Assembly: GCF_019458025.1 (NCBI RefSeq)
Contig: NZ_JAHZUY010000008.1
Span: 26,566 to 90,565, forward strand
Origin: Caldovatus aquaticus
Lineage (GTDB): Bacteria > Pseudomonadota > Alphaproteobacteria > Acetobacterales > Acetobacteraceae
Reading direction: 5' to 3'
Length of the DNA stretch: 64,000 nt
Part shown: positions 23,444 through 56,924 of the stretch, piece by piece
How positions within the stretch are numbered: the first letter of the stretch is position 1
Layout: every line of letters starts with the position of its first letter
Made by a program: the position numbers and the translations under genes
The notes under the pieces: generated by a model
What the model was told of the DNA's origin: nothing
Seen by the model: the letters and a program-made list of their open reading frames with translations, nothing else
The model's database searches: none

Positions 23444-23492
23444 GGGCGGATTCGCGCTTCCGGCCGTTCCCGGCCGTCCGCGATCCGCCCTA
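23444..23492 (-). repeat. Copy C of the palindromic intergenic repeat (best preserved)
   Basis: The plus-strand arms GGGCGGATTCGCG and CGCGATCCGCCC pair over 12 bp with one bulged T. Inside lies a second perfect 6-bp stem CGGCCG/CGGCCG with loop TTCC. The putA stop codon (TAG on the minus strand) begins on the last base of the right arm, so the hairpin would form immediately after translation ends. It may act as the putA terminator or as a 3' stabiliser. Confidence 0.7.
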
Positions 23493-26400
23493 TCCGCCCT
23501 CCCCGTCCATCGCCAGGAGCGCGGCGTTGCCGCCGGCGGCGGCGGTGTTGACGCTGACCGCGAGCTCGGTGGCGAAGCGGATCAGCGTCACCGGCCCGCC
23601 CGCCTTCGGCCCGGTGCCGGAAAGGCCGTGCCCGCCGAAGGGCTGCACCCCGACCACGGCGCCGATCTGGTTGCGGTTGACGTAGGTGTTGCCGACCCTG
23701 AGGCGCTCGGCGACGTGGCGCTGCACGGAGGCGATCCGGCTGTGCACGCCGAGCGTCAGCGCGTAGCCGTTCGCCGCGATGTCGTCGAGCAGCCGGTCGA
23801 GCGCGCCGCTGCGCCAGCGCACCACGTGCAGCACCGGCCCGAACACCTCGCGCGTCAGCGCCCGCGCGGACTCCAGCGCATAGGCGCGCGGGGCGAAGAA
23901 GGTGCCGCGCCCGAGCCCCGCGGGCAGCGGCACCTCGAACAGCGGCGGCGCCCCGAGGCCGCGGCACCACCCCTCCAGCTCCTCCCGCGCCGCCTCGCCG
24001 ATCACCGGGCCGATGTCGGTCGCGGGGTCGAGCGGATCGCCCAGCCGCAGCTCCGCCGCCGCCCCGGCCAGCATCGCCAGCACGCGGTCGGCGATGTCCT
24101 CCTGCAGGCACAGGAGGCGCAGCGCCGAGCAGCGCTGCCCCGCCGAGTTGAAGGCGGAGGCGAGCGCGTCGGCGACCACCTGCTCGGGCAGCGCGCTGCT
24201 GTCCACCACCATGGCGTTGATCCCGCCGGTCTCGGCGATGAAGGGCACGATCGGCCCGCCGCGCGCGGCGAGGGCGCGCGCGATGTGCTGTGCCGTCTCC
24301 GTCCCGCCGGTGAAGGCGACGCCGGCGATGCGCGGATCGCCGACCAGCGCCGCGCCGACCGTGGCCCCCTCGCCCGGCAGCAGGTGCAGCACCGCGGGCG
24401 GCACGCCGGCCTCGTGCAGCAGGCGCACGGCGAGCGCGGCGACCAGCGGCGTCTGCTCCGCCGGCTTCGCCGCCACGGCGTTGCCGGCGGCGAGCGCCGC
24501 CGCGACCTGGCCGGTGAAGATCGCGAGCGGGAAGTTCCAGGGCGAGATGCAGGCGAAGACGCCGCGGCCGCCGAGCGCCCAGGTGTTGCGCTCCCCGGTC
24601 GGGCCGGGCAGCTCGCGCGGCGGGCCGAACCACTCGCGCGCGCGGGCCGCGTACCAGCGGCAGAAATCGGCCGCCTCGCGCACCTCGGCGTTGCCGTCGG
24701 CGAGCGTCCTGCCGGCCTCGCGCGCGAGCAGGGCGAGGAAGTCGAAGCGGTGCGCCTCGATCAGATCGGCCGCGCGCTCGAGCACCGCCGCGCGCGCCGC
24801 CCCGCCCAGCGCATCCCAGCCGCGCCAGGCGGCGGAGGCGGCGGCGAGCGCGGCGTCGAGGTCGGCGGGGCCGGCCTCCCACACCGTGCCGACCAGGGCC
24901 GCGCGGTCGGCCGGGCTGCGGATCTCGCGCAGCGTCCCCGTGCGCAGCGCGGGATCGCTCCACGGCCGCCCCGCCGCCGCGCGCACGGCGGCGAGCGCCG
25001 GCTCGCGCACCGCCGGATCGGCGAGGTCGAGCCCCCGGGAGTTGCGCCGGTCCGGATAGAGCGCGGCCGGCAGCGGGATGCGCGGATGGCGCGGCGGCCC
25101 GGCGCGCGCGGCCGCCACCGGATCGGCGACGATCGCCTCCTCCGGCACCTCGGGGTCCACCAGGCGGTGGACGAAGGAGGTGTTGGCGCCGTTCTCGAGC
25201 AGCCGCCGCACCAGGTAGGCGAGCAGGTCCTCGTGCGAGCCGACCGGCGCATAGACGCGCACCGGCGCCTCGCCGCGCGCCACGACCGGGGCATAGAGCG
25301 CCTCGCCCATGCCGTAGAGGCGCTGCATCTCGATCTCCTGCCCCTCGGCGAGCTCGAGCACGTAGGCGACGCTCAGCGCGTTGTGCGTGGCGAAGGCGGG
25401 CCGCAGGAGGCCGCGCAGCTCGAGCAGCCGGCGCGCGCAGGCGAGCCAGGAGACGTCGGTCGCCGCCTTGCGCGTGAACACGGGATAGTCGGGCAGCCCC
25501 TGCACCTGGGTCTGCTTGATCTCCGCGTCCCAGTAGGCGCCCTTCACCAGCCGCACCGGGATCGCGTGGCCGCTCCGCCGCGCCAGCGCCGCGGTCCACT
25601 CCAGCACCGCCGGCGCCCGCTTCTGGTAGGCCTGCACGGCGAGGCCGAGCCCCTCCCAGCCGGCGAGCGCCGTCTCGCCGCGCACCGCCTCGAGGATGTC
25701 GAGCGAGATCTCCAGCCGCTCCGCCTCCTCCGCATCCACCGTGAGGCCGATCCCCTGCGCCTTCGCCTCGCGCGCCAGCGCGCCGAGGGCGCCGATCAGC
25801 GCCGGCACGCAGCGGTCGGCCTGCAGCGGCTCGTAGCGCGGGTGCAGGGCCGAGAGCTTGACCGAGACGCCGTGCCCCGCGACCGGGCCGAGCCCGGCGG
25901 AGGCCCGCCCGGCCGCGCCGATCGCGGTGCGGTAGGCGGCGAAGTAGCGCTCGGCGTCGGCGGCGGTGCGCGCCGCCTCGCCGAGCATGTCGAAGGAGTA
26001 GCGCCAGCGCCGGCCCTCGGCGCCGGCGGCGCGCTCCAGCGCCTCCTCGATCGTGCGCCCCATCACGAACTGGCGCGCCAGGACCCGCATTCCCTGGCGC
26101 AGCGCGGCGCGGATCACCGGCTCGCCGAGCCGCTGCACCGCGCGCGCGATCGCCGCCGGCACGGCGCGGCTCTCGTCGAGCTGCAGCACGCGCCCGCTGA
26201 GCAGGAAGGCGAAGGCCGAGGCGTTCACCGCCAGGCTGTCGGCATGGCCGAGATGCGCCTGCCAGTCGCCTTCGCCGAGCGTGGCCTCGATCAGCGCGTC
26301 CTGGGTCGCGGCGTCGGGAATGCGCAGCAGCGCCTCGGCGAGGCAGAGCAGCGCCACGCCCTCGCGCGTGTCGAGGCCGAACTCGGCGAGGAAGGCCGAG

Positions 26401-26597
26401 ACGTCGGCGCCCTGCCGGTGCGCCGCGCGCGCCTGCCGCACCAGCGCGAGCGCCCGCTCGCGCACGCGGCGGCCGATCTCCGGCGGCAGGGCGGCGGCGG
26501 CGAGCAGCGGCGCCAGCGCCTCCCCCTCGTCCAGCCGGTGCAGGCGCCGCATTCCGGCGCGGTCCTCGGCGGGCCGGGGTGCGGGAGAGTCGGGCAT
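23490..26597 (-). CDS. putA: Bifunctional proline dehydrogenase/L-glutamate gamma-semialdehyde dehydrogenase
   Basis: 1035 aa. The N-terminal arm and FAD barrel (PRODH) carry the usual GHGVSVKLSALHPRYE, VKGAYWDAEIKQ and ATHNALSVAYVLEL. The ALDH half has GFAFWSPWNFPLA-equivalent ISPWNFPLAIFTGQVAAAL, VAFTGGTETAQ and the catalytic cysteine Cys823 in AGQRCSALR. No ribbon-helix-helix DNA-binding domain precedes the PRODH part, so it is not autoregulatory like the E. coli protein. ATG at 26597 is chosen because GGAGG lies 8 nt upstream; the longer frame opposes the promoter of the next gene. It degrades proline to glutamate, feeding electrons to the quinone pool. Confidence 0.96.
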   Translation of the reverse strand: MPDSPAPRPAEDRAGMRRLHRLDEGEALAPLLAAAALPPEIGRRVRERALALVRQARAAHRQGADVSAFLAEFGLDTREGVALLCLAEALLRIPDAATQDALIEATLGEGDWQAHLGHADSLAVNASAFAFLLSGRVLQLDESRAVPAAIARAVQRLGEPVIRAALRQGMRVLARQFVMGRTIEEALERAAGAEGRRWRYSFDMLGEAARTAADAERYFAAYRTAIGAAGRASAGLGPVAGHGVSVKLSALHPRYEPLQADRCVPALIGALGALAREAKAQGIGLTVDAEEAERLEISLDILEAVRGETALAGWEGLGLAVQAYQKRAPAVLEWTAALARRSGHAIPVRLVKGAYWDAEIKQTQVQGLPDYPVFTRKAATDVSWLACARRLLELRGLLRPAFATHNALSVAYVLELAEGQEIEMQRLYGMGEALYAPVVARGEAPVRVYAPVGSHEDLLAYLVRRLLENGANTSFVHRLVDPEVPEEAIVADPVAAARAGPPRHPRIPLPAALYPDRRNSRGLDLADPAVREPALAAVRAAAGRPWSDPALRTGTLREIRSPADRAALVGTVWEAGPADLDAALAAASAAWRGWDALGGAARAAVLERAADLIEAHRFDFLALLAREAGRTLADGNAEVREAADFCRWYAARAREWFGPPRELPGPTGERNTWALGGRGVFACISPWNFPLAIFTGQVAAALAAGNAVAAKPAEQTPLVAALAVRLLHEAGVPPAVLHLLPGEGATVGAALVGDPRIAGVAFTGGTETAQHIARALAARGGPIVPFIAETGGINAMVVDSSALPEQVVADALASAFNSAGQRCSALRLLCLQEDIADRVLAMLAGAAAELRLGDPLDPATDIGPVIGEAAREELEGWCRGLGAPPLFEVPLPAGLGRGTFFAPRAYALESARALTREVFGPVLHVVRWRSGALDRLLDDIAANGYALTLGVHSRIASVQRHVAERLRVGNTYVNRNQIGAVVGVQPFGGHGLSGTGPKAGGPVTLIRFATELAVSVNTAAAGGNAALLAMDGEGG

Positions 26598-26891
26598 GGC
26601 GGGCCTCCGCGCAGGCTGCGTGGGTCCGCGGCGCGGGCCTGCGGCGCCGGCCGCGGCCGGGCCGCTCGGCGGGAGAGCGCGGCGGCCCCGGCGCACTCAG
26701 AGTAGAGGCACACGCGCGGACCGCTCCAGCCATCCGCGGCCCGCCGTTGTGGAGCAGCGCAGCCAAGCACCGCGCGCGCCACTGCGCGCGGCGCGCCGAC
26801 ACGCAAGGCATCCCGCGGCCGCACGCGCCGCAGCACGACCGCGCCGCCCCGCCTCGACGCCGTGCCGCCGGCGTGGCACCCCTGCCGCCCG

Positions 26892-27923
26892 ATGCGGCCC
26901 ACCCTGCACCCGCGGCTCGTGAACGGACGCGGCGGCGACCCGGCCCTCTACGTCGAGGCCCTGCACCTGCCCGAGGCGGTGCTGTTCGACTGCGGCGACC
27001 TCTCCGCCCTCGCCCCGCGCCATCTGCTGCGGGTCGGCCTGCTCGCGATCTCGCATGCCCACATGGACCACTGGGCGGATTTCGACCGGCTGCTGCGGCT
27101 GCTGGTCGGGCGCGCCAAGCGCCTGCCCGTCGTCGGGCCGGAGGGCTTCGCGCAGCGCCTCCACCACCGCCTGCAGTCCTACACCTGGAACCTCGCCGAC
27201 CGCATCGGCAACGACCTCGTCTTCGAAGCGATCGAGGTGACGGGTTCCGCCCCCGGCGCCTGGCCCCGCACCCTCCTCCGGCTGCACGGGGCCTTCCGGC
27301 CGGAACCGCTGCCGCCCCTGCCGGCCGCGGCGGACGGCACCGTGCTGCGCCTCGGCCGGCTGCGGCTGCGCGCCGCCGTGCTCGATCACGGCACCCCCTG
27401 CCTCGGCTTCGCCCTCGAGGAGGCCGAGCACCTGAACGTCTGGCGCAGCCGGCTGGAGGCGCGCGGCCTGCCCACCGGGCCCTGGCTCGCCGGCCTGAAG
27501 GCGGCGGTGGCCGAGGGGCGCCCGGACGACCATCCGGTCCCGGTCTTCGCCCGCGCCGCCGAGGCCGCCGCGGCGCCGCGCCTGCCGCTGGGCGCGCTCC
27601 GCGACCTGGTCAGCGTCACGCCCGGGCAGCGCGTGGCCTACCTGACGGACTTCGCCGACACCCCGGCGAACCGCGCCGCCGCCGTCGCGCTCGCGCGCGA
27701 AGCCGACACGCTGTTCATCGAGGCGCCCTTCGCCGCCGCGGACGCCGCGCTCGCCGCGGAACGGCGGCACCTGACGACGCGCGCCGCGGGCGAGATCGCG
27801 CGGGCGGCGGGTGCGCGGCGCGTCGAGCCGTTCCATTTCTCGCCGCGCTACCTCGGCCAGCACGACCGGCTGCTGGCCGAGATCGCCGCCGCGGCCGGGC
27901 GGCCGGTCGGAGCCGCCCCCTAG
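26892..27923 (+). CDS. RNase Z-like metallo-beta-lactamase-fold hydrolase
   Basis: 343 aa. The MBL signature HxHxDH is SHAHMDHWADF near residue 55, and later metal ligands appear as YLTDFAD and the C-terminal PFHFSPRY. The N-terminus has an LFDCGD strand, as in RNase Z. Length and the late His motif fit the tRNase Z-like/arylsulfatase-like branch, but the 'flexible arm' is short, so a true tRNA 3' processing role is not certain. ATG at 26892 is chosen over an upstream codon because the sequence becomes homologous-looking from there. The 294-nt gap to putA must contain divergent promoters. Confidence 0.75.
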   Translation: MRPTLHPRLVNGRGGDPALYVEALHLPEAVLFDCGDLSALAPRHLLRVGLLAISHAHMDHWADFDRLLRLLVGRAKRLPVVGPEGFAQRLHHRLQSYTWNLADRIGNDLVFEAIEVTGSAPGAWPRTLLRLHGAFRPEPLPPLPAAADGTVLRLGRLRLRAAVLDHGTPCLGFALEEAEHLNVWRSRLEARGLPTGPWLAGLKAAVAEGRPDDHPVPVFARAAEAAAAPRLPLGALRDLVSVTPGQRVAYLTDFADTPANRAAAVALAREADTLFIEAPFAAADAALAAERRHLTTRAAGEIARAAGARRVEPFHFSPRYLGQHDRLLAEIAAAAGRPVGAAP

Positions 27924-28434
27924 CGGGGCGCGAGGGCCGCACAGCCGGCCGGGAAAGGCGCGGGCCGGGCCCTGCCCCGCTCTCCCTCCTTCGCCTTCCG
28001 TTCCCCCCGCGCGGCCGCTTCCGCGGCGGCCAGCGGCCGGTGGCTGTCGCGGGGATCCGCGCTCCCGCCCGTTCACGCCGGCCCGCGAGGTGCGATCCGC
28101 GCGGCCGGGCGGCGGCCGGGCGGCGACGCTAGCATGACCGAACAAGACACGGCACGGGCCGCGGGCTGGGGAATGGCAAGCGGGGGCGCAACCGGAGGCC
28201 GCGCCGCGGGTTCCTCTGGGGCCAGCCCGTGCGGACTGGCTCCGGGCGGACGGGGGCCAAACGCGGCGACGGCCAGGGAAGGACGCGCCCCCCGGAGACG
28301 TGGAACGGCACTGCCCCGCGCGCGAACCGCCCCCCCGCCCCGAGTCGGACGGATGCCGGACCATCGCCGCCGCGTCGGCGCGATCCCGGGGCGCCGGAAC
28401 GACACCCGGGAACCTGGATATGGGAGTTGTCCTG
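27924..28434. other. Gap without a recognisable gene
   Basis: 511 nt of GC-rich sequence. Open frames exist on both strands but none has a ribosome binding site with a sensible start or resembles a known protein. A degenerate relative of the palindromic repeat may lie at 28053-28105, where the arms are only partly matched. Confidence 0.4.
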
Positions 28435-28755
28435 ATGCCTCTGTTCACCCTGGCCGTCGAGGGACGGCCCGTTCCGGTCCTCGCGCAGCAGAACCTCGGC
28501 CGGGCGGAGAAGCTGGTGACTTCCGCCATCGCCCCGGATCTCGCGGAGCTCGAGGAGGCAGGTCGCCCCGTCTGGAACGGCGAGAGCGAACTCACGGTGC
28601 GGAACGCCTCCCCCGACGAGACCTCCCGCTGGGAGCGGGCCTTCGCGCAGGCCATCGCCGAGGGCGAGGCGGCCGAGGGCGATCGCGACGGCTTCGCCGT
28701 CTTCCTGATCGCGGTCGAGGAGGCCGGCGGGGAAGAGGACGAGAGCGAGGGGTAG
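28435..28755 (+). CDS. Small acidic hypothetical protein
   Basis: 106 aa. Begins MPLFTLAVEGRPVPVLAQQNLGRAEKLV and ends in an acidic tail (EEAGGEEDESEG). The central part (SELTVRNASPDETSRWERAFAQAIAEG) is predicted helical. ATG at 28435 is chosen because TGGGAG lies 8 nt upstream; an ATG five codons earlier is possible. No membrane segment, signal or known motif. Possibly restricted to Acetobacteraceae; function unknown. Confidence 0.65.
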   Translation: MPLFTLAVEGRPVPVLAQQNLGRAEKLVTSAIAPDLAELEEAGRPVWNGESELTVRNASPDETSRWERAFAQAIAEGEAAEGDRDGFAVFLIAVEEAGGEEDESEG

Positions 28756-29184
28756 TCCCCCTCGCCTCCTCGGCGCCCCTGGGCCGGCCGCGGGCGGAGC
28801 AGGCGGCCGGCCCGTGACCGGGACACGCGGAGCCGCCGCGGTGTGCCGCGGCCGGCGGACGGGTCGAGGCGGCCTGTCCGCAAGCGGCGCGCGCCGCGCC
28901 GCCAGCCGTCGGCGCGCGACGCCGCTCGAGGCACCGGATCCAAAACCAAATTCGTGTCTGGCGCGGGGAGGCGCCCCCCGGCCGTTTCCCGCCATGCGCG
29001 ATCCGCTCGCGCCCTCGGCCCGCCCGCCACGGCGCGGCGGCGCGAGGGCAACGGCGCGTCGAGAAGGCCGGCACGCGCCGCTCCCCCGGCGTCGCCGAAG
29101 CGCCGCGGCCTGAAGCCGCTTGCGCCGGGAGGGGCGCCGGGGAGGAGGGGAGCCGCCGAACACGGCCCCCGCCCCGCCCTTTCC
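28756..29184. other. Gap holding copy D of the palindromic repeat and an AT-rich spot
   Basis: 429 nt. At 28979-29010 the plus strand reads CCGGCCGTTTCCCGCC then ATGCGCGATCCGCTCGC, clearly copy D of the repeat with a degenerate left arm. About 35 nt earlier lies AAAACCAAATTCG, a rare AT-rich stretch. No gene is recognisable here. Confidence 0.5.
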
Positions 29185-29988
29185 TCAACCTGCTGCCGGA
29201 CCCTGGCGCGCCGGTGTCCCGCCGGGCGCGCCGGCGCCGAGCGCGCGCGCCAGGGCAGGCGAGAGCCCCGTCGTCGCGACCGGGGCGGGGCGGGGCGGCG
29301 TCCCATCCGCGGGCCGCCGCGCCGCCGTCACGCCCTCCGCCAGCAGGCAGTCGAGGCTGTCGAGGAGCGGCACCCCGGGCAGGCGGGGCGCGATCCGCTC
29401 CGCCAGCCCCGCCAGGCCGGCGCCGCCCAGCACCACCGCGCCCGCCCCCTCCGCCGCCTCCCGCGCCGCCTCGGCGAGCATCGCCAGGGCGCGTTCGGGA
29501 GCGCGCGCGATCGCGTCCCCGGCCGGCGGCACGCTCCGCACGCGCACCCGCTCCGGCCCGAGGCCGCGCAGCCGGGCGAATTCCTCGAGCATCGGCACCC
29601 ACGCGGCGCCGCCGGTCAGCACCGCGACCGGACGGTTCCCGGCCACGCGCAGGGCGGCGGCCAGGCTCGCTTCCGCCATGCCGACGACCGGCACGGGGCA
29701 GAGCTCCCGCGCCGCCTCGAGCCCGGGATCGCCGAAGCAGGCGAGCAGGACGCCGGCGAAGCGGTCCGGATTGGCCGGGCCGATGCGCTCGGCGATGCGC
29801 TCCAGCACCGCATGGGCCGCGATCGCGGCGGCGGCCCGGCTCGCGACGTACCGCGCGCCGAAGCGCGCCGTCTCCGGCACCAGCGTCGCCCCGCCGAGGC
29901 CGAGGCGCGGCAGCGCCGCCGCCGCGCGCGCCATGAGCAGGCCGGTGATGGCGGGATCGGTGTTGCCGTTCAGCAGGAGGAGCTTCAT
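29185..29988 (-). CDS. Asp/Glu/hydantoin racemase family protein lacking second cysteine
   Basis: 267 aa. The first half of the family motif is intact: LLLNGNTDPAITGLL, then Cys84 in LLACFGDPG and VVGMAEASL. The second catalytic cysteine, normally in VVLGCAG, is Gly189 here (AVVLGGAGLAGL). A two-base racemisation mechanism is therefore unlikely; the protein may be a hydrolase, decarboxylase or isomerase of the same fold. Start ATG at 29988 has no clear Shine-Dalgarno. It is divergent from a dipeptide-type binding protein, with a 190-nt gap. Confidence 0.8.
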   Translation of the reverse strand: MKLLLLNGNTDPAITGLLMARAAAALPRLGLGGATLVPETARFGARYVASRAAAAIAAHAVLERIAERIGPANPDRFAGVLLACFGDPGLEAARELCPVPVVGMAEASLAAALRVAGNRPVAVLTGGAAWVPMLEEFARLRGLGPERVRVRSVPPAGDAIARAPERALAMLAEAAREAAEGAGAVVLGGAGLAGLAERIAPRLPGVPLLDSLDCLLAEGVTAARRPADGTPPRPAPVATTGLSPALARALGAGAPGGTPARQGPAAG

Positions 29989-30177
29989 GACCGGCCATTG
30001 GCGCCCGCCCGGGCCGCCGCCGCAAGGGCGACGGCGCCGCGCGCCGCATCGGTGGGCAGCCCTGCCCACGGGGTGGGCAAAGCCCCGCTGCGGTGGTGTA
30101 GCATCCGCCCTCCCCCGGCGCGGCATGGGCCTTGCTGCGTCGCGGCAAGACACCGGCCCTCGGGAGGATCCTCGCAG

Positions 30178-31815
30178 ATGAGCCCACGCCGCCGCCTCCT
30201 GCTCTCCGCCTGCCTCGGCGTCCTGCCGCTGCTCGCGGCCGCCACCGCGCCCGGCCCCGTCCGGGCCCAGGGCACGATCCGCATCGGCATGACCGCGGCC
30301 GACATCCCCCTCACCCACGGCCAGCCGGACCAGGGCTTCGAGGGCAACCGCTTCACCGGCATCCCGCTCTACGACAGCCTCACCATGTGGGACCTGTCGC
30401 AGGGCGAGCGGCCCTCGACCGTGATCCCCGGCCTCGCCACCGAGTGGAGCGTGGACCCGAACGACCGCACGCGCTGGATCTTCCGCCTGCGCCGCGGGGT
30501 GAGGTTCCACGACGGCTCCGCGTTCGACGCCGACGCCGTGGTGTGGAACGTGCGCAAGGTGCTCGACCGCGAGGCGCCGCACTACGACCCGCGCCAGGTC
30601 GGCCTGACCGCGACGCGCATGCCGACGCTGCGGCGGGCGGAGAAGGTGGACGACCACACGGTGGCGCTCTACACCTCCGAGCCCGACAGCCTGCTGCCGA
30701 TCAACCTGACCAACCTGTTCATGGCCTCGCCGGCGCACTGGGAGCGGCTGCGCCAGCAGCACCCGACCGCCGAGGCCACCTGGAACGCCTTCGCCGCCAA
30801 TCCCTCCGGCACCGGCCCCTTCCGCATGGCCCGCTTCGTGCCGCGCGAGCGGGTCGAGTACGTGCGCAACCCGGACTACTGGGGCGAGCCCAAGGCGCGC
30901 GCCGAGCGCATCGTCCTGCTGCCGATCCCCGAGCCGAACGCCCGCACCGCCGCGCTGCTCTCCGGCCAGGTGGACTGGATCGAGGCGCCGGCGCCGGACG
31001 CGGTGCCGCAGCTCCGCGCGCGGGGGATGCAGATCTTCCAGAACGTCCAGCCGCACGTCTGGCCCTGGCAGCCCTGCTTCGTCGGCGATTCGCCGCTGCG
31101 CGACGTGCGCGTGCGGCGGGCGCTGAACCTCGCGATCGACCGCGAGGGGCTGAAGCAGCTCCTCAACGGCATGATGGTGCCGGCGGTGGGCACGGTGCCG
31201 CCCGGCCATCCCTGGTGGGGCAACCCCTCCTTCCGGATCCGCACCGACAAGGCGGAGGCGCGGCGGCTGCTCGCCGAGGCGGGCTACGGCCCGCAGCGGC
31301 CGCTGAACCTGCGGGTGCAGATCTCCGCGAGCGGCTCGGGGCAGATGCAGCCGCTGGCGATGAACGAGTTCATCCAGCAGGACCTCCGCTCGCTCCACGT
31401 CAACGTCGAGTTCGACGTGGTGGACTGGAACACGCTGTTCACCAACTGGCGCCAGGGCTGCCAGCACGCAACGGCGCGCGGGGCGCACGCGATCAACGTC
31501 TCCTACTCGGCGATGGACCCGTTCTTCGGGCTGGTCCGGTTCTACGACAGCAGGATGGCGCCCCCCGTCTCCAACAACTGGGGCCACTTCAACGACCCGC
31601 GCTTCGACCGTCTGGTCGCCGAGGCGCGCAACGCCTTCGAGCCGGAGGCGCGCGACGCCGCGCTGGCGCGGCTGCAGGCCGCGGGCGTGGACGAGGCGCT
31701 GTTCATCTGGATCGCCCACGACGTCGGCCCGCGTGCGATGAGCCCGCGCGTCAGGGGCCACGTCCAGCCGCAGAACTGGTTCGTGGACCTGCGCTACCCC
31801 TACATCCAGCAGTGA
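30178..31815 (+). CDS. Peptide/nickel-type ABC transporter substrate-binding protein
   Basis: 545 aa, SBP_bac_5 type. A Sec signal peptide (LLLSACLGVLPLLAAATAPG...RAQ) is followed by TIRIGMTAADIPLT and typical motifs: TEWSVDPNDRTRWIFRLRRGVRFHDGS, NPSGTGPFRMARFVPRERVEYVRNPDYWG, VRRALNLAIDREGLKQ and LFTNWRQGCQHA. The ligand pocket cannot be read further; peptides, glycosides or siderophore-like compounds are possible. GGGAGG lies 10 nt before the ATG. It is followed by a strong hairpin and then the two permease genes. Confidence 0.93.
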   Translation: MSPRRRLLLSACLGVLPLLAAATAPGPVRAQGTIRIGMTAADIPLTHGQPDQGFEGNRFTGIPLYDSLTMWDLSQGERPSTVIPGLATEWSVDPNDRTRWIFRLRRGVRFHDGSAFDADAVVWNVRKVLDREAPHYDPRQVGLTATRMPTLRRAEKVDDHTVALYTSEPDSLLPINLTNLFMASPAHWERLRQQHPTAEATWNAFAANPSGTGPFRMARFVPRERVEYVRNPDYWGEPKARAERIVLLPIPEPNARTAALLSGQVDWIEAPAPDAVPQLRARGMQIFQNVQPHVWPWQPCFVGDSPLRDVRVRRALNLAIDREGLKQLLNGMMVPAVGTVPPGHPWWGNPSFRIRTDKAEARRLLAEAGYGPQRPLNLRVQISASGSGQMQPLAMNEFIQQDLRSLHVNVEFDVVDWNTLFTNWRQGCQHATARGAHAINVSYSAMDPFFGLVRFYDSRMAPPVSNNWGHFNDPRFDRLVAEARNAFEPEARDAALARLQAAGVDEALFIWIAHDVGPRAMSPRVRGHVQPQNWFVDLRYPYIQQ

Positions 31816-31820
31816 CCAGC

Positions 31821-31858: not shown

Positions 31859-31870
31859 ATCGAGGGACCG

Positions 31871-48323: not shown

Positions 48324-48396
48324 TTCCCCCGCCACTTCCCCCGCCACGCCCGCGCTGTCGCCGGCCGAGCGCTACCGACGCCTCGCCGCGCTGCGA

Positions 48397-48972: not shown

Positions 48973-48991
48973 GGCGGCCCCGTGCGCGTCC

Positions 48992-49008
48992 CGCGGCCAC
49001 CGGCCGCG
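48992..49008. terminator. Short stem-loop between convergent genes
   Basis: CGCGGCC/GGCCGCG forms a 7-bp stem with loop ACC, midway between two convergent stops. A bidirectional terminator is plausible; no T-run follows on either strand. Confidence 0.35.
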
Positions 49009-49028
49009 TCCGGAAAGCGGCCCGCGGG

Positions 49029-49310: not shown

Positions 49311-49404
49311 GGGCCTCTTCTGTCGCAAACGCGAGCGCTGCGTTCAAGGGCCGGCCGCCCCGCGGCCCCGACGCGGGACGCAACGGGAACGCGCCCTTCC
49401 GCGC

Positions 49405-49686: not shown

Positions 49687-50178
49687 CGCGCCGGGCGCGC
49701 CATGGGCCGCAACCGGGCGCCGCCCCGCCCCGGCGCGCCGCGAGCCGGCCGGCGCCGGCGCGATCGAGGCCGAAGGTCCCGTTGCCGAGCCCGTCGCGGC
49801 AGGGGAACGGCAGCGGCCGCCGGACCATCAGCGCCGGCTCGCCGGGCGCGGCGCAGCGTGCCGCCCTCCGGCCGCAGCAGGCCGGCGGGCACCAGCCGCC
49901 GGCCGCGGCGCACTACGAGGTGGCGGACGGCAAGGAAGTCCGGCGCGGCGCGGCCGGGGAGGGGGGGCGGTGCGGCGGACGGCGGGGAGGGCCGGGCGGG
50001 GCATGGCGGCCTGTCCTGCGCTGCCATGGAGCGTTTCTGTCCCGATCGCCGCCCCGCGACTCCCCGTGCCCCGGCCTCCCTCCCGTCGCCAAACACCCGC
50101 TCCGCCCTTCCCTCGCCCCGCCTCCCCGCCTCCGGCAGAGTGACGCACGAACCGAATCGCCAGGGGCCCGCCGCCGCC
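49687..50178. other. Gap, possibly the 5' part of the decayed gene above
   Basis: 492 nt without a convincing intact gene. On the minus strand it holds the peptide segments listed for the small open frame to its left, in two different frames. On the plus strand it contains the 5' region of the oxaloacetate decarboxylase-like gene. No repeat or known site is visible. Confidence 0.35.
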
Positions 50179-51051
50179 ATGACCACTGCCGCCACCCGCC
50201 GCCGCGCCCGCCTGCGGGCGCTTCTCGCCGGCACGGAGTGCCTCCATCCCGCCTCGGTGTACGACCCGCTCTCGGCCCGCATCGCGGAGGACATCGGCTT
50301 CGAGCTCGGCATGTTCGCCGGCTCCACCGCCTCGCTCGCGGTGCTCGGCGCGCCCGACCTGATCCTGGTGACGCTGACGGAGTTCGCCGAGCAGTGCCGG
50401 CGCATCGGCCGCGCCGCGCCCGACCTGCCGGTGCTGGTGGACGCGGACCACGGCTACGGCAACGCGCTCAACGCGATGCGCACCGTCCAGGAGGTGGAGG
50501 CCGCCGGCATCGCCGCCGCCACCATCGAGGACACGCTGCTGCCCCGGCCCTACGGCGCCGCGAAGCCGCAGCTCGTCCCGCGCGAGGAGGGGCTCGGCAA
50601 GATCCGCGCCGCCCTCGCCGCGCGCGACGACCCGGCCTTCCTCGTCGTCGCGCGCACCGGCGCGGCGCAGATCGCGGGGCTCGAGGAGGCGATCGCCCGC
50701 GCCCGGGCCTACGAGGCGGCCGGCGCCGACGCGCTGTTCTTCACCGGCGTGAGGACCCGCGCGCAGCTCGCCGCGATCGCCGAGGCGACGCGGCTGCCGC
50801 TCATCCTCGGCAGCGTCGAGGGCGAGCTCGCCGACCGCGCCCTGCTCGCCGCGCACCGGGTGCGGATCGCGCTGCAGGGGCACCAGCCGATCGCCGCCGC
50901 GGCGCAGGCGGTGCACGCGACGCTGCGGGCGCTGCGCGACGGCGTGAAGCCGTCGGACCTCCCCGGCCTGCCGCCGCCCGGCTTCCTGGCGCGCCTGATG
51001 CGGGAGGAGCGGTACGCCGCCTGGACGCGCGATTTCCTGGGCGGAGGCTGA
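50179..51051 (+). CDS. Oxaloacetate decarboxylase-like protein of the isocitrate lyase/PEP mutase superfamily
   Basis: 290 aa, close to the length of PA4872-type oxaloacetate decarboxylase. Signature segments are HPASVYDPLSARIAEDIGFE, LILVTLTEFAEQCRRIGRAA, DADHGYGNALNAMRTVQEVE and IEDTLLPRPYGA, with Mg-binding Asp in DADHGYG. In this branch the enzyme decarboxylates oxaloacetate or a related 3-oxoacid. Start ATG chosen by homology to the 'RARLRALLAGTECLHPAS' start region. It stands alone between two degraded regions. Confidence 0.85.
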   Translation: MTTAATRRRARLRALLAGTECLHPASVYDPLSARIAEDIGFELGMFAGSTASLAVLGAPDLILVTLTEFAEQCRRIGRAAPDLPVLVDADHGYGNALNAMRTVQEVEAAGIAAATIEDTLLPRPYGAAKPQLVPREEGLGKIRAALAARDDPAFLVVARTGAAQIAGLEEAIARARAYEAAGADALFFTGVRTRAQLAAIAEATRLPLILGSVEGELADRALLAAHRVRIALQGHQPIAAAAQAVHATLRALRDGVKPSDLPGLPPPGFLARLMREERYAAWTRDFLGGG

Positions 51052-51165
51052 GCGGCCGGCGGCGCCAGCCGGCGCGTGTTCGGGCGGGGGCCGCCGCGGC
51101 GCAGGCCAGCCCCGCGCGACGGGGCCCTTGCCTTGAGGGGCCCGCGTCCCGTTCTCTCCGCCACG

Positions 51166-53337
51166 ATGCGCCGTCGCCTCGCCGTCGCCCTGGCCCTGCT
51201 CCTCGCCCTCGCCGCCGCGCCGCCCCCCGCCGCGGGGCGCGAAAGCGCGCCCGTCGCCTCCCCCCGCGCCACCGCCACCCTGGTCGCGGAGACCGAGGCG
51301 ATCGCCCCGGGCGAGCCCTTCCGCCTCGGCCTGCGCCTGCGCCTCGCCCCCGGCTGGCACACCTACTGGAAGAACGCCGGCGACGCCGGCGCACCGCCCG
51401 AGATCGCGCTGGCCCTGCCCACCGGTGCCGCCGCCGGCCCGATCGAGTGGCCCGCCCCGCAGCGCATCCCCTACGGTCCGCTGGTGAATTTCGGCTACCA
51501 GGGCGAGGTCCTGCTGCCGCTGCGCGTGACCCCGCCGGCGGGGCTCGCCCCCGGCGCCTCCCTCCCGGTCGAGGCCGAGGCCACCTGGCTGGTCTGCGAG
51601 CACGTCTGCATCCCGGAAAGCGGCCGCTTCCGCCTCGATCTCCCGGTCGCGGCCGCGGCCCGTCCCGATCCCGCCCTTGCTGCGCTCTTCGCCGCCGCCG
51701 AGGCGGCCCGGCCCCGCCCGGCGCCCTGGGCCGCCCGGGTCGAGACCGGCTCCGGCCGGGCGGCGCGGCTCCTCCTCGACGGCCACGGCCTGTCGCCGGC
51801 CACGGTGCGCGAGGCGTTCTTCTTCCCCGAGGCGCCCGGCGCGCTCGACCACGCCGCGCCGCAGCGCCTCGCCGTGCGCGAGGGCGGGCTCGCCCTCGCC
51901 CTCACCCGCGCCGAGAGCGCCGACGCCCCGCCCGGGACCCTCTCCGGCGTGCTGGCGATCACCGATGGCGGCGGCCGGCGCGCCGCCTTCGCCCTGGCGG
52001 CGCCCGTGGCCGCCGCGCCCGCCGCCCCGCCGCCGGCGCTGGCGCTGTGGCAGGCGCTCGGCCTGGCGCTGCTCGGCGGCCTGCTGCTCAACCTGATGCC
52101 GTGCGTCTTCCCGGTGCTGGCGATGAAGACGCTGGGGCTGGCCCGCCTCGCCGGCGCGGCGCGAGGCGCGGTGCGGCGCGAGGCGCTGGGCTATGCCCTC
52201 GGTGTCGTTGCCGCCTTCGCGGCGCTCGGGGGCGTGCTGCTCGCGCTGCGCGCGGCGGGGGCGGCGGCGGGGTGGGGCTTCCAGTTCACCGCGCCGGCCT
52301 TCGTCGCCGCCATGGCCTGGCTGATGCTCGCCGTCGGTCTCAACCTCGCGGGCGTCTTCGCGCTCGGCCACGGCGGCACGGCGGTGGCGGCCGCGGCCGG
52401 CACGGCGGGCGAGGTCGCGGCGCGCCACCGCGGCACGCTCCTCGGCAGCGCCGCGACCGGCGTGCTGGCGGTGCTGCTCGCCACCCCCTGCACCGCGCCC
52501 TTCATGGCCGCCGCCGTCGGCGCGGCGCTGGCGATGGCGCCGACGGCGACGCTCGCGGTGTTCCTCGCCCTCGGCCTCGGCCTCGCCGCGCCCTCGGTGG
52601 TGCTGGCGGCGGCGCCGGCCCTGGCCCGCGCCCTGCCGCGGCCCGGGCCGTGGATGGAGCGGCTGCGCCAGGGGCTCGCCTTCCCGATGTTCGGCGCCGC
52701 TGCCTGGCTGGTCTGGGTTCTGGCGCAGCAGGCGGGGCCGGACGGGGTGCTGGCTGCGCTCGCCGGCGGCGTGCTGGTGGGCTTCGCCGCCTGGGCGCTC
52801 GGCGCGGCGCAGCGTGCGGGCGGGACGCGCGGCCGGCGCCTCGGCGCCGGGCTCGCCCTGGCTGCCGCGCTCGGGGCCGCCGCCCTGCTGCCCGGGCTGG
52901 GCACGGCCCCGGCCGCCTCCGCCGCCGCGCAGCCGGCCGAGGGAGACGGCGCCGAGCCCTGGTCGGAGACGCGCCTCGCCGCGCTGCGCGCCGAGGGGCG
53001 GCCGGTCTTCGTCAACGTCACCGCCGCCTGGTGCATCAGTTGCCAGGTCAATGAGCGCGTGGCGCTGCGCGCCGCCGCGGTGCGCGCGGCCTTCGCCGCC
53101 GGCCGCGTCGCCTGCCTCAAGGCCGACTGGACGCGCGGCGATCCGGCGGTCGGCGCCCTGTTGCGTGCGCACGGGCGCGAGGGCGTGCCGCTCTACCTGC
53201 TCTATCCGGCCGGCGGCGGCGCGCCCGAGGCGCTGCCGCAGCTCCTCACCGAAGGGATCGTGCTCCGCGCGCTCGCCGCGGCCGGCATCGCCGGGCCGGA
53301 GGCACCGGTCGCGGAGGCGGCGGCGCGCCGGAGATAG
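51166..53337 (+). CDS. DsbD/ScsB-like membrane thiol-disulfide reductase
   Basis: 723 aa. A signal peptide (AVALALLLALAAAPPPAAG) precedes an N-terminal periplasmic beta-domain with WHTYWKNAGDAGAPPEI and the CEHVCIPESG cysteine pair. About eight membrane helices follow with the paired cysteines MPCVFPVLAMK and TPCTAPF. The C-terminal thioredoxin domain ends the chain with VTAAWCISCQVNE (CxxC). It carries electrons from cytoplasmic thioredoxin to periplasmic partners. Architecture and length fit the ScsB branch, often linked to copper resistance or cytochrome maturation. No partner gene adjoins. Confidence 0.9.
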   Translation: MRRRLAVALALLLALAAAPPPAAGRESAPVASPRATATLVAETEAIAPGEPFRLGLRLRLAPGWHTYWKNAGDAGAPPEIALALPTGAAAGPIEWPAPQRIPYGPLVNFGYQGEVLLPLRVTPPAGLAPGASLPVEAEATWLVCEHVCIPESGRFRLDLPVAAAARPDPALAALFAAAEAARPRPAPWAARVETGSGRAARLLLDGHGLSPATVREAFFFPEAPGALDHAAPQRLAVREGGLALALTRAESADAPPGTLSGVLAITDGGGRRAAFALAAPVAAAPAAPPPALALWQALGLALLGGLLLNLMPCVFPVLAMKTLGLARLAGAARGAVRREALGYALGVVAAFAALGGVLLALRAAGAAAGWGFQFTAPAFVAAMAWLMLAVGLNLAGVFALGHGGTAVAAAAGTAGEVAARHRGTLLGSAATGVLAVLLATPCTAPFMAAAVGAALAMAPTATLAVFLALGLGLAAPSVVLAAAPALARALPRPGPWMERLRQGLAFPMFGAAAWLVWVLAQQAGPDGVLAALAGGVLVGFAAWALGAAQRAGGTRGRRLGAGLALAAALGAAALLPGLGTAPAASAAAQPAEGDGAEPWSETRLAALRAEGRPVFVNVTAAWCISCQVNERVALRAAAVRAAFAAGRVACLKADWTRGDPAVGALLRAHGREGVPLYLLYPAGGGAPEALPQLLTEGIVLRALAAAGIAGPEAPVAEAAARRR

Positions 53338-53867
53338 GCGGCGAGCGGCCCGCCGCGGCGCGGCCACGGGCGGGAGCGCGTCCCGGGCACGCCGCCGGCC
53401 CAGCGGGATCGGCCCCGGTTGTGGTCATCGCGCGCGGGAAGCCGCCCTCTTCGCGCGGCGCGACCGCAGAAGGCGGTGATGGCGCCCGGCGCGGAAGCCG
53501 GCCGGGCCGAGCCAGGGGGATTTGGGGAGGGCCTGAGCGGCGTCGGATGCTTCCCTGCCCCGATCGAGCGGATCGCGCCCGGCCGGGACACAGGCCGGGC
53601 GGCGGCTCCGCGCGACCGAGGCGATACCCCGGTGCCGTGGTCGCGCGCGATCGGGCGACAACGCTCCGCGGGCTCGCGGCGGGCCAGGAACAAGATGGCC
53701 GCACGGGCTGCCGGCAACCGCCAGCCGGACCCCGGCGCCGAAAGCGGCTCGTCGCGCGCCGGCGCGCGCCGCGTGACCGGCGGCGACTGGGCCCGCCGGC
53801 CCCGCGATAGCGCCGAGCGCCGCAACGGGACGCGGCCGCGACGCTGCGGCGGAGCTCCCTCGCGCGG
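53338..53867. other. Gap holding copy F of the palindromic repeat
   Basis: 530 nt between the DsbD-like stop and the degraded methyltransferase. At 53566-53599 the plus strand reads GAGCGGATCGCG followed by CCCGGCCGGGACACA and GGCCGGG; the last two parts form a perfect 7-bp stem. The rest is GC-rich with no gene or site recognised. Confidence 0.45.
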
Positions 53868-54960
53868 CTATCTCGGCTCTCGCGTCCGCACCCGCCTTTC
53901 GCGGGGTCCGCCCGCGAGCCGGCTGCCCCGGGCGAGGGCGGCGAACCGCGCGACGCGCCGCGCGAGGCGAGCACGCGGCGCTGCGCCTTCCGCCGCCGCG
54001 GGCAGCGGCGCCGTCAGGAGCCAGCTGGTGGAAGCGAGCACGGCATCGAGATGCCGGCGCGTCGCCGCGAGCTGCGCTCCCAGCGCGTCGCGCTCGTTCT
54101 GCAGAGCCCGCGGCATCGCCGTGCGCGGCTCCGGCAGAGCCTGCGCGGCGGGCTGGGCATCGCCGTTGCCGGCCGCGTCCGGCACCCCGCCCTCGCCGAG
54201 CCGAGCCTCGGCCTCGGCAAGCGTCTGGACCTGGCGCACCGCCGCGCCGCGCGCCGCGAACAGCGCGCGCAGCCGGTCCGCGCGCTCCGGCAGGAACCGC
54301 AGATCGAACAGCGCGGTCAACGCCGGCGGCAGGTCGTCGCCCAGGCCAAGCACGCCGAGGCCGCAGCCGTGGTGGAACTCGAAGTGCGGATGCTGCTCCG
54401 CCAGCCCGCGCCAGAGCCGCCGGACGCCGAAGTCGCGCGCGCATCGGCGGCGTGGAACAGAGCCACGCCGCGGCGGGGCGAGACGGCGTCGCGCCGGGCG
54501 CGGAAGTCGTGAGCGACCGCCTCGTAGGTGTGCAGCCCGTCTATGTGCAGCAGCTCGATCTCGCCGACGGCGGACTGCGCGCGCGGCGTCGAGCTAGGCG
54601 CGGACCAGGGTGGAGAAGCCGAACCAGCGCGTCGCGTTGAGCGCGGAGACGGCAGCGAACACCTCCTCGCCGTAATGTCCCGCATGGGCGTCCCCCCGCC
54701 GGGTGTCCACCGCATAGGCGCGGGTGTCGAGGCGAAGGCGCTCCGCGGCGTGGCAGAAGGCAGCGTAGGACACGCCCAATGGGTGCCGAGCTCGACGATG
54801 CAGGCGGGACGCAGCGCCTTGATCAGCCAGAGCCAGAAGGCGAAGGACACGTCCTCGACCCAGGCACCCAGGCGCTGGGCGCGAGATAGACGGGCGGCCG
54901 GTCGCTCCGTCGTCGATGGCGAGGGCCCCGACGAGGGAGGCAAGGCCCGCCGCCCCGGCA
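53868..54960 (-). pseudogene. Frameshifted SAM-dependent methyltransferase-like gene
   Basis: The decayed reading on the minus strand switches frame at least four times. It starts with LASLVGALAIDDGATGRP, then in another frame RLGAWVEDVSFAFWLWLIKA and LRPACIVELGTHW, then the first frame again with GVSYAAFCHAAERLRLDTRA and YAVDTRRGDAHAG, ending in a TAG at 54594. The second frame resumes with EIELLHIDGLHTYEAVAHDF and the first ends with RDFGVRRLWRGLAEQHPHFE and FHHGCGLGVLGLGDDLPPA, closing at 53868. Together these give a Methyltransf_24-like domain often fused to or beside glycosyltransferases. A duplicated WL in AFWLWLIK suggests slippage. It could also reflect assembly errors. Confidence 0.75.
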
Positions 54961-55304
54961 GCGTGAGCATGAGCGCCTGCGGCATCCCTCCGCTGCGATG
55001 GGCACGACCAGTGGCGGAATTCGCGCATGGAGAATAAGGGCGCGGCGCCCCCTTCTGCGCGCGCCCGATGGCGGTAAAGCGGACGTCCAGCGCGCAACGG
55101 CGACGGCGCGGCGCGATGCCGACACGAACACCCCCGCGCGCCGGCCGCCACCCGGGCCGCGATGCACGGGCATCGCGCTCCTCTCGCGCGGGTTCAAGGG
55201 CGCGTCGCCGCCCTCGCTCTGCGACGGCGCGCGCACCCTCGCCGGCGGCGCGAGGGGAGAGTATTGCTCGCCCCGAAGGATCCGCACCGCAGGAGAGGAC
55301 CGCC
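54961..55304. other. Gap upstream of the TctC-like gene
   Basis: 344 nt with no recognisable gene. It must contain the start of transcription for the TctC-like gene, whose AGGAGAGG lies at 55291-55298. No repeat or palindrome stands out. Confidence 0.4.
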
Positions 55305-56306
55305 ATGATCGCCCGCCGCCGCGTGATCGCCACCGCCGGTGCCGCCGCAGCCGCGCTTCCCTGTGCCGCGCCCCGCGACGCCGCGGCGCAGGGAAGCGAC
55401 GACGCCGCCTGGCCCAGCCGCCCGATCCGCATCGTCGTCGGTTTCGTCGCCGGCGGCGGCACCGACCTCACCACGCGCACCCTCGCGCCGCACCTGCAGG
55501 CGAGCCTCGGCCAGCCGATCGTCGTCGAGAACCGGCCCGGCGGCGGCGGCAGCCTCGCCACCGAGGCGGTCGTGCGCGCCGCGCCCGACGGCTACACACT
55601 GCTCATGGGCACCATCTCGTCGCTGGTGATCAATCCGGCGATGCAGCGGCTGCCCTTCAACGTGCAGACGGACCTCACTCCCATCAGCCTGGCGGTGGAC
55701 GTGCTCAACATCCTGGTGGTGCCGTCCGACCGGCCCTGGCGCAGCGTCCCCGAGCTGATCGCCGCGGCGAAGGCGCGGCCGGGCACGCTGGCCTACGGCT
55801 CCTCCGGCGTCGGCAGCGCCGGGCATCTCGGCGGCGCCCTGCTCGACCGGCTCGCCGGCATCAGCACCATCCACGTGCCCTATCGCGGCGGCGGCCAGCT
55901 CATCACCGACATCCTCTCCGGCAAGGTGGACTTCGCCATCGCCACCGCGGCGACGACGCTGCCGCACATCGAGGCCGGCAAGCTGCGGGCGCTCGCCGTG
56001 CCGACCGCGCGGCGCTCGGCGCTGGTGCCCGACCTGCCGACCATCGCCGAGGCGGCGGGACTGCCCGACTACGAGCTGGCGAACTGGTACGCGCTGCTCG
56101 GCCCGCGCGGCCTGCCGCGGCCGATCGTGGAGCGGCTCAACGCGGCGATGGGCGAGGCGCTGCGCGATCCGGCGATCGTGGCGAGCCTCGCCCGCCACGG
56201 GCTCGAACCGGCCCCCAGCACGCCGGAGGATCTCGCCCGCCACATCCGCGAGCAGACGGTGAAGTGGGCCCCCGTGGTGCGCGAGGCCGGCGCCACGCCG
56301 AACTGA
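55305..56306 (+). CDS. Tripartite tricarboxylate transporter (Bug/TctC) substrate-binding protein
   Basis: 333 aa. A Tat-like signal peptide (ARRRVIATAGAAAAALPCAA) precedes WPSRPIRIVVGFVAGGGTDL, the classic Bug start with WPxxPI. Other motifs are IVVENRPGGGGSLATEAV, APDGYTLLMGT, ILVVPSDRPWRSVPELIAAA and IHVPYRGGGQLITDILSGKV, the ligand cleft. AGGAGAGG sits 7 nt before the ATG. The membrane subunits TctA/TctB are not near, as is common in bacteria with many Bug proteins. It likely binds a carboxylate. Confidence 0.95.
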   Translation: MIARRRVIATAGAAAAALPCAAPRDAAAQGSDDAAWPSRPIRIVVGFVAGGGTDLTTRTLAPHLQASLGQPIVVENRPGGGGSLATEAVVRAAPDGYTLLMGTISSLVINPAMQRLPFNVQTDLTPISLAVDVLNILVVPSDRPWRSVPELIAAAKARPGTLAYGSSGVGSAGHLGGALLDRLAGISTIHVPYRGGGQLITDILSGKVDFAIATAATTLPHIEAGKLRALAVPTARRSALVPDLPTIAEAAGLPDYELANWYALLGPRGLPRPIVERLNAAMGEALRDPAIVASLARHGLEPAPSTPEDLARHIREQTVKWAPVVREAGATPN

Positions 56307-56351
56307 GGGCGGCCCGGCGCCCGCGCCGCGTCCTCCGGCCGCGGCCGCCTC

Positions 56352-56380
56352 TTGCCTCGGGGCGCCGCGCGGGCTTATCT
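56352..56380 (+). promoter_or_regulatory. Candidate sigma70 promoter before the leader peptide
   Basis: TTGCCT and TTATCT are separated by exactly 17 nt and lie 42 nt after the TctC stop. The predicted start would fall at or next to the ATG of a 25-codon leader, so the message could be leaderless. Confidence 0.4.
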
Positions 56381-56386
56381 GGCGCC

Positions 56387-56464
56387 ATGGTCAGGACGAT
56401 GCCGCGCAGGCGCGGCGACCGCAGCGCGCGATTTTGGCGCCGCCGGTACCCACCGGCGGCCTAG
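56387..56464 (+). CDS. 25-aa leader peptide candidate
   Basis: MVRTMPRRRGDRSARFWRRR is followed by YPPAA and TAG. It is rich in Arg and has Phe, Trp and Tyr near the end, where a stalled ribosome would cover the first hairpin. The stop codon lies one nucleotide after a hairpin formed by its own last codons. There is no Shine-Dalgarno, in agreement with a leaderless start. A real peptide is plausible but unproven. Confidence 0.35.
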   Translation: MVRTMPRRRGDRSARFWRRRYPPAA

Positions 56465-56517
56465 GACGCGCGCGCCCCACGCCGATCCCGAAGCCGCCAA
56501 GCCCGCTGGCGGTCTTC
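56439..56517 (+). promoter_or_regulatory. Attenuator-like alternative hairpins
   Basis: Segment 1 GCCGCCGGT and segment 2 ACCGGCGGC pair over 9 bp with loop ACCC. Segment 3 and segment 4 pair over about 10 bp (GAAGCCGCCA with TGGCGG and TCTTC, one bulge). Segment 2 can instead pair with segment 3 (GGCGGC/GCCGCC). This is the 1:2, 2:3, 3:4 layout of attenuators. No T-run follows the 3:4 stem. The target would be the 71-aa gene at 56588. Confidence 0.4.
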
Positions 56518-56587
56518 GGTTCCCGTTCCCCCTGACCCGACCAAGCATCGCCCGCGAGGTGCGGCGGCCCCCGACAGGAGGCCCGAC

Positions 56588-56803
56588 ATGCACCATCCCC
56601 GATCGGATTACGATTTCGACGTGATCAGCGGCCCGGCGACGCCACCGCCCCGGCCGGCGCCGGCCCCGGCGGCGTCCGGCGCCGGACGCACCGTCGCGAC
56701 CGGCCTCGCGCGGGCCGCCCGCGCCGCCGGAAGCCCCGTCCGGCCGACGGAGGGAGCGGCCGGACCGCGCGAGGCCGGCGACACCGCGCAGCGCCCCGGG
56801 TAG
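56588..56803 (+). CDS. Small 71-aa hypothetical protein
   Basis: MHHPRSDYDFDVISGPATPP leads into a Pro/Ala-rich body (RPAPAPAASGAGRTVATGLA) and a charged tail (TEGAAGPREAGDTAQRPG). AGGAGG lies 6 nt before the ATG, which supports translation. No transmembrane or known motif. The N-terminal DYDFDVISGP block looks like a binding or targeting motif. A possible attenuator lies in the leader. Function unknown. Confidence 0.6.
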   Translation: MHHPRSDYDFDVISGPATPPPRPAPAPAASGAGRTVATGLARAARAAGSPVRPTEGAAGPREAGDTAQRPG

Positions 56804-56876
56804 CCACGGCGGGTCGCGCGCTGCAGCCGTTTCCGACCGGCCAGGCTCCCGGCAGAGGCTCCGGCCCTTGCCCCTC

Positions 56877-56924
56877 GAGCGGATTCGCGCTCCCGGCTGT
56901 TTCCCGCCGTCCGCGACCGCTCTA
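56877..56924 (-). repeat. Copy E of the palindromic intergenic repeat
   Basis: Plus-strand arms are GAGCGGATTCGCG and CGCGACCGCTC, pairing over 11 bp with two bulged bases, and an inner 4-bp stem CGGC/GCCG. The second base pair is A-T here and G-C in the copy at 23444-23492, a compensating change. The response-regulator stop (TAG on the minus strand) starts at the right arm, as in that copy. About 53 nt upstream both copies share CCGTTTCCG followed by a base and CCGGCC. Confidence 0.7.

Follow-up and report, generated by a model that had tools for sequence, protein, structure and literature searches.

The window analysed here, 64,000 nucleotides of the Caldovatus aquaticus contig NZ_JAHZUY010000008.1, carries several copies of an intergenic, hairpin-forming repeat that often begins exactly on the TAG stop codon of the adjoining gene. 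A sequence-only reading had described it as a palindrome of about 48 nt; this observation was confirmed in part, and the interpretation attached to it was likewise partly supported. We hold with good confidence that the repeat is a non-coding element of about 101 bp resembling a miniature inverted-repeat transposable element (MITE), i.e., a non-autonomous transposon, which would insert at the TA of CTAG and less often of other nTAG sites.

The two best copies lie on the minus strand. The first (23388..23492; nhmmer E 3e-20, body of 101 bp) has as its left end the TAG stop of putA (23490..26696, minus strand; Pfam Pro_dh and Aldedh), its right end (GGAAACGGTTC) is decayed, and the corresponding site is empty in G001, the congener used for comparison. 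The second (56821..56924; E 6e-17) has a 1-nt deletion in the left arm, and its left-end TAG is the stop of a response regulator gene (56922..57470, minus strand; Pfam Response_reg, E 6e-15). The G001 site is empty here too, with an ambiguous stop, and this copy was registered one base off in the tallies of ends and stops given below, so that it is not counted there as a left stop. A CaiB/CoA-transferase III gene (14299..15978, plus strand; Pfam CoA_transf_3, E 4e-125) ends on the TAG with which a left arm begins (15976..16015, plus strand, end approximate; TAGGGCCGATCGCGGACGGC, one mismatch to the degenerate end pattern). The three starts on stop codons that had been noticed from the letters thus concern genuine genes. 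Facing the last arm is an inverted second left arm (16065..16110, minus strand), weakly matched (E 9e-3) and containing an exact GGATCGCGGACGGC at 16091-16104; the stretch 15976-16110 looks like two left arms facing outward.

The remaining copies are decayed. One of them (11449..11532, minus strand; E 4e-6 to 3e-4) has a left TAG that is no gene's stop, and the 474-aa open reading frame (ORF) at 11530-12954 on the minus strand matches nothing in Pfam and scores negatively for coding. Another lies at 28905..29008 (minus strand; E 8e-6), and a strongly decayed one at 53563..53649 (plus strand) is weak (E 5e-3) and was not recovered by later models at the limits used. Profiles based on copies outside the window match all six places reported previously, at 23389-23492, 56821-56924, 28905-29008 and 11451-11532 and, weakly, at 53563-53649 and 16065-16108. 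A looser scan of the window only was at chance level (69 matches vs. 66.9 expected), and no Rfam family reaches its gathering score in the window. Both hairpins of the best copies (23444-23492 and 56877-56924) are present as described. Compared with shuffled sequences, folding was pronounced at 23440-23496 (z -4.3) and weaker at 56873-56928 (z -2.0, with 7/200 shuffles as good), while z ranged between -3.2 and 0 for the other five stretches folded.

Copy number and anatomy of the repeat

The family is far above chance genome-wide. The genome-wide covariance-model search proposed together with the initial observation gave at least 149 matches at E<=1e-3, a lower bound since 150 candidates were scored in all. 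The 15-mer CGGATCGCGGACGGC occurs 60 times exactly and 432 times with up to two mismatches, as compared to 162 for a reversed control, and a full-length profile found 88 matches vs. none on reversed sequence in a 937-kb set partly chosen for containing copies.

Our analysis of 97 copies, retained from 117 matches (E<=1e-9, away from contig ends, duplicates removed), revealed a unit of about 101 bp and not 48 nt, consisting of a left hairpin, a linker and a second hairpin, with TA on both sides. The body measures 101 bp in 65/97 copies (49/70 in C. aquaticus and 16/27 in G001) and 99-102 bp in 85/97. The arms occupy about positions 1-50 and 70-108 of the unit, the first of them being the 48-nt hairpin. 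The sequence CCGTTTCCG, which had been noticed 53 nt upstream of both best hairpins, is indeed shared by them; it is no separate motif but forms the element's own right end, lying in the right terminal regions 23390..23408 and 56824..56841 (both minus strand). The second hairpin terminates in GGAAACGGCTC, as seen when 30 exact-core copies were read outwards from the conserved block. In the best-kept copies TA is found at both termini (CTA...TAG), the form CTA/GAGC...GCTC/TAG being seen in copies of G001 and of genome G083, and the terminal inverted repeat is short and imperfect, measuring about 8 bp in the consensus of G001. GANTC, the CcrM site, is present in 66/97 copies (0.76 sites per copy); within the left hairpin it falls in a stem or bulge of the 3' arm and is not clearly placed at the terminal loop. 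In the genome at large this site is scarce, at 0.078 per 107 bp in 822 kb of C. aquaticus contigs. Mean identity among copies is 0.81 in G001 and 0.78 in C. aquaticus; the G001 copies are slightly more alike and may therefore be younger. In another genome, G026, left-arm units were seen in tandem with a 63-bp period (L097, about 1500-1760).

Stop codons and the target site

The claim that all copies lie between genes held well: none of 35 C. aquaticus and none of 27 G001 copies fell inside a coding frame, whereas 886/2000 random positions did. Stops were judged with a codon model for which 208 ORFs served as the training set. By this measure the left TAG closes a coding-like ORF in frame in 32/70 C. 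aquaticus copies (16/35 on contigs fetched in long runs) and 14/27 G001 copies, and the right end does so on the opposite strand in 11/70 (5/35) and 11/27 copies, respectively. At either end a stop was found in 20/35 long-run copies of C. aquaticus, in 20/27 of G001 and in 61/97 overall; two copies in C. aquaticus and five in G001 end both genes of a convergent pair.

The base before the left TA (n=67) was C in 47 copies, A in 10, G in 8 and T in 2. By comparison, C precedes TA in 63/207 TAG stops of the C. aquaticus contigs, those at elements included (p 1e-8). The tetranucleotide CTAG is depleted about six-fold relative to the trinucleotide expectation (147 vs. 875 expected in the 822 kb of C. 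aquaticus; 157 observed and 877 expected in G001), and 41/112 and 38/114 of the free non-genic CTAG sites, respectively, are stops. The depletion and the share of stops among non-genic CTAG sites, roughly one third, together explain much of the stop-codon pattern. The above stop shares of insertions at either end exceed those of the free sites in C. aquaticus (p 0.05) and in G001 (p 2e-4), a comparison that is loose because some insertions lie at nTAG sites other than CTAG.

Sixteen C. aquaticus elements (17 rows) had collinear flanks in G001. The G001 site was empty with TAG in five cases, empty with CAG in one and empty with an ambiguous stop in one, and three were occupied in both genomes, a call resting on gap length and a G001 match and not on reading by eye; the other six gave no call (three read, three not read). 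MAFFT alignments of the empty sites were poor beyond the junction, and junctions were read by eye. Five of the seven readable empty sites, or five of the ten junctions read by eye, already carried a TAG stop (putA, C51:25563, C118:17239, L061 and L002), and the TAG is therefore the landing site. The repeat starts on stop codons because it sits in a CTAG or TAG already present at most readable empty sites. For the remaining carriers the reading covered a few loci at most.

At putA, G001 shows TAG followed by the flank without an element, and a bare TAG is also found in Crenalkalicoccus (L104) and in the metagenome-assembled genomes L105 and L107, while a third such genome, L109, has TAA. In a further metagenome-assembled genome, L108, a member lies on the same putA TAG stop as the C. 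aquaticus copy in the opposite orientation (6086-6194, 41 bits); this insertion is independent of the one in C. aquaticus. It is one of two tandem members at 6086-6298, which are identical in 99/109 columns and share a CTAG directly on the putA stop. The stop-adjacent member was found by a narrower search, the broader search having listed only its overlapping neighbour.

The clearest empty/occupied case is the congeneric pair G158 and G083, with flanks 95-96% identical. At this young site G158 reads ...CTCGGCTAG/CCGCGG and G083 reads ...CTCGGCTAG/AGC...GCTCTAG/CCCGCG, and thus CTAG is single in the former and stands at both junctions in the latter.

Relatives in other genomes and on plasmids

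Under strict filters, relatives were found in 40/299 genomes of the family Acetobacteraceae, C. aquaticus included, and in 20/102 genera. Carriers include Crenalkalicoccus roseus (G023), Rhodovastum and Komagataeibacter, and weaker matches were obtained in Azospirillum and Rhizobium. A model built from 30 diverse copies also recovered copies that had not been used for it (among them L289, L290, L292, L293, L108 and the neighbour of the G083 copy).

Searched against plasmids, a G001 copy gave no match and a G083 copy gave matches which outside Acetobacteraceae mostly had E of 1e-2 to 1. With a Rhizobium copy as query, the Rhizobium-type element was found at 1978 places in 489 plasmid records. 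Relatives occur on plasmids of Rhizobium and Sinorhizobium and, with weaker matches, of Azospirillum. Nine plasmid regions were opened, eight of them with gene annotation. In five of these eight an annotated coding sequence (CDS) ends exactly on the element, at its left end in Rhodovastum (L287), Rhizobium (L289 and L292) and Azospirillum (L291), and at its right end in Shinella (L295).

Hairpin conservation, mobility and known repeat families

A conserved structure had been proposed from one G-C pair replaced by A-T between the two best copies. This single pair is weak alone, being A-U in 31, G-U in 10, G-C in 5 and unpaired in 29 of 75 copies, but the proposal held once relatives were compared. 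Among 76 copies of C. aquaticus and G001, pairing was 87.7% vs. 86.0% in shuffled alignments, and 11/29 pairs had changed on both sides; up to 13 such pairs were seen in slid versions, whose two-sided cells, however, numbered no more than 29 vs. 53. Across genera (30 copies) pairing was 90.3% vs. 79.5%, 16/25 pairs had changed on both sides, and 74 two-sided cells were counted vs. 22.3 +/- 3.9 in shuffles, slid versions giving at most 20 cells and 9 pairs; the Rhizobium-type rows are poorly registered in the left arm of this alignment. RNAalifold on 30 close copies had given two-sided change in 2/20 pairs, as against the 16/25 of the wider sampling. The stems covary across genera and the structure is conserved.

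Stable hairpins that covary across genera and stand just behind stop codons are also what would be expected of a regulatory element of the 3' untranslated region, a terminator or mRNA stabiliser, held at gene ends by selection on RNA hairpins. We consider this quite unlikely, given that orthologous genes occur without the element, that both ends adjoin stops, and that pairing within C. aquaticus and G001 is barely above shuffles, with some outer pairs often broken. Furthermore, the terminator role suggested for the hairpin did not hold: the longest T-run in the 97 copies is 2 behind the left and 3 behind the right hairpin, and no terminator-like site was found at 23300-23600. In the absence of a T-run the element is not an intrinsic terminator, and caution is needed so that stop-adjacent hairpins are not taken for terminators. 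The element might later have come to play a part in RNA stability.

It is likely that the repeat spread as a small transposon. As in MITEs, it is non-coding, dispersed, bounded by (short, imperfect) terminal inverted repeats and present or absent between relatives; the full-length unit, its presence/absence, the junction CTAGs, the pre-existing TAG stops and the C before TA were all directly observed. A TA-duplicating transposase of IS630-, IS5- or Tc1-like chemistry may move the element. In the lineage of the window the first base at both ends would be G, so that TA plus G would rebuild TAG whichever way round the element lies. Insertion into a stop codon would then leave the gene's product unchanged, and insertions within genes would be removed by selection. 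This would provide a selection-based reason for an intergenic repeat so often beginning exactly on a TAG stop. After insertion, the end serving as stop codon would keep its TA and the other end would tend to decay. Counting retained TAs at ends that are stops is to some extent circular because a stop there requires TAG, and the non-circular test is the link between the TAs of the two ends. The left TA is retained in 45/68 C. aquaticus and 22/27 G001 copies. Both TAs are kept in 8 of 60 C. aquaticus copies, the left only in 31, the right only in 10 and neither in 11, a negative link (p 0.04), and both are kept in 14/25 G001 copies. Selection on the stop-serving end would fit such one-end decay.

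Several observations weigh against the transposon interpretation. The link between the two TAs is modest in C. aquaticus and lacking in G001. At TAG targets, a TA duplication is indistinguishable from insertion beside TAG without duplication. Flanking bases are asymmetric, with C on the left in 47/67 and G on the right in 32/35 copies (p 0.02), which a symmetric TA-duplicating enzyme by itself would not predict, and left-end stops exceed right-end stops on the C. aquaticus contigs (16 vs. 5, p 0.03), although not in G001 (14 vs. 11). Copies of G113, G026 and G190 end on the right in ...CTG/TAG or similar, so that right-end insertion would not rebuild TAG there. Of the empty G001 sites, that of L008 has CAG, as does C. 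aquaticus, and another has the ambiguous stop. The G083 site is not simple, as a second, distant member lies beside the insertion (L268, 1603-1710) and shares CTAG with it. On plasmids, the nearest upstream CDS ends earlier in 2/8 regions (L288 and L290), and in Sinorhizobium L293 the annotated CDS extends about 48 nt into the element. Finally, when about 1.8 Mb was scanned for half ends, no autonomous partner was recognised among 626 one-ended matches, many of which were clear left ends of decayed copies; matches with up to four mismatches were read as a list and not individually checked for a neighbouring transposase. The distant member of L268 itself has many copies in both G083 and G158.

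IS630 transposases (PF13358) were considered as the parent. The C. aquaticus genome has one fragment at a contig edge whose end does not match, no PF13358 gene was found in G001, and a scan for CTAG, TAGAGC and GCTCTA around the five genes of G023 gave no matching end pair.

The suggestion that the repeat is REP-like (repetitive extragenic palindromic) stands insofar as it is dispersed, intergenic, structured and probably mobile. GTAG REPs are described, in the available part of the source, as palindromes whose TAG end is often a gene's stop (PMC3733652). This likeness, the two hairpins with TAG at their outer ends and the asymmetry of the flanking bases would all suit a REPIN/BIME-type element whose movement depends on a single-strand transposase, a RAYT or another of the Y1 (IS200/IS605) kind, for which TAG would be the cleavage tag. 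However, the element is longer than GTAG REPs and REPINs, its tag is nTAG with C preferred (47/67) and not GTAG (G in 8/67), and both orientations occur on the same putA stop. RAYT/Y1 genes (PF01797) were found in 0/17 carrier genomes, most of them drafts that could miss the gene, and in 5/14 control genomes. No such gene having been found, the element is not a classical REPIN, and we regard movement of this kind as unlikely.

Regarding known families, CIR1-4 are said to be Caulobacter CcrM-associated intergenic repeats, reportedly described by Chen and Shapiro in 2003, and RIME the Rhizobium-specific intergenic mosaic elements of a 1995 report by Osteras. The present family works like the alphaproteobacterial CIR, RIME and Bru-RS repeats and, judged by their descriptions, probably belongs with them. 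The kind of repeat is thus already known; the target site and the stop-codon neutrality are the new part. In the consulted portion of a review, CIR are about 110 bp long and consist of two arms joined by a linker; they have GANTC and TA termini, target-site duplication marked "?" and no terminal inverted repeat; they are listed as only partly MITE-like, with target duplication and mobility unknown (PMC2229807). They are also described as strictly intergenic in the part of a second source that was available (PMC10969869). The repeat studied here shares the length (about 101 bp), the two inverted-repeat arms with a linker, the TA ends, GANTC, the location outside genes and the alphaproteobacterial host. 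It differs in the place of GANTC, which is in the left hairpin's 3' arm without clearly being at a terminal loop, and, as far as CIR are covered in that part of the review (PMC2229807), in having a short terminal inverted repeat and a demonstrated target site. The empty/occupied pairs give this target site (CTAG, often a stop) and make the question of mobility testable. RIME, in the partial descriptions available, are intergenic repeats of rhizobia. The Rhizobium and Sinorhizobium plasmid copies, possibly RIME1, have the two-hairpin plan of the present element, with TAG on the left and CTAG on the right in most of those read. ERIC, RUP and Correia elements are given in the same portion of the review as TA-terminal MITEs of about 100-200 bp with TA termini and target duplication (PMC2229807); unlike them, the present element has two separate arms instead of one end-to-end stem, and an imperfect terminal inverted repeat of about 8 bp. 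In the literature searched, which left most subscription papers outside, no report was recognised that describes this family or the targeting of CTAG or stop codons by elements of the CIR type.

We tentatively suggest, while leaning somewhat against it, that CIR, RIME and Bru-RS form one superfamily spanning the alphaproteobacteria, which uses the stop codon as a safe harbour. If this were true, the G...C ends found in the lineage of the window would, with TA duplication, restore TAG on either strand, insertion would be silent in both orientations and could even spare both genes of a convergent pair, and stop-codon neutrality would let the superfamily reach hundreds of copies. The right ends of some relatives, which would not restore TAG, make this less likely.

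The Bru-RS1 and Bru-RS2 repeats of Brucella are palindromic (103 bp in Bru-RS1) and form hot spots of IS711, an element whose insertion at YTAR duplicates TA, according to the accessible parts of two sources (PMC2266754, PMC3163539). In the present family, too, ends of insertion sequences (IS) adjoin the terminal CTAG, a likeness of description and not of letters. Transposase fragments in this position, IS5-like in C81 and C4 and IS1182-like in G083, all under NCBIfam cut-offs as expected of fragments, would agree with the repeat being a target pad for IS, spread by recombination or gene conversion. This appears very improbable to us, since flanks differ, exact ends are shared and presence/absence comes with CTAG at both junctions. 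IS-like ends adjoining the terminal CTAG were seen at L059 1-123, L001 1-124, L060 1-123 and L086 1-76, and at the right flanks of L270, L271, L272 and, on the minus strand, L273, L274 and L275. Those tested were C-terminal fragments of IS5-family transposases in L059 and L001 and an IS1182-like N-terminal fragment in L270, and these IS-like ends lie near contig edges.

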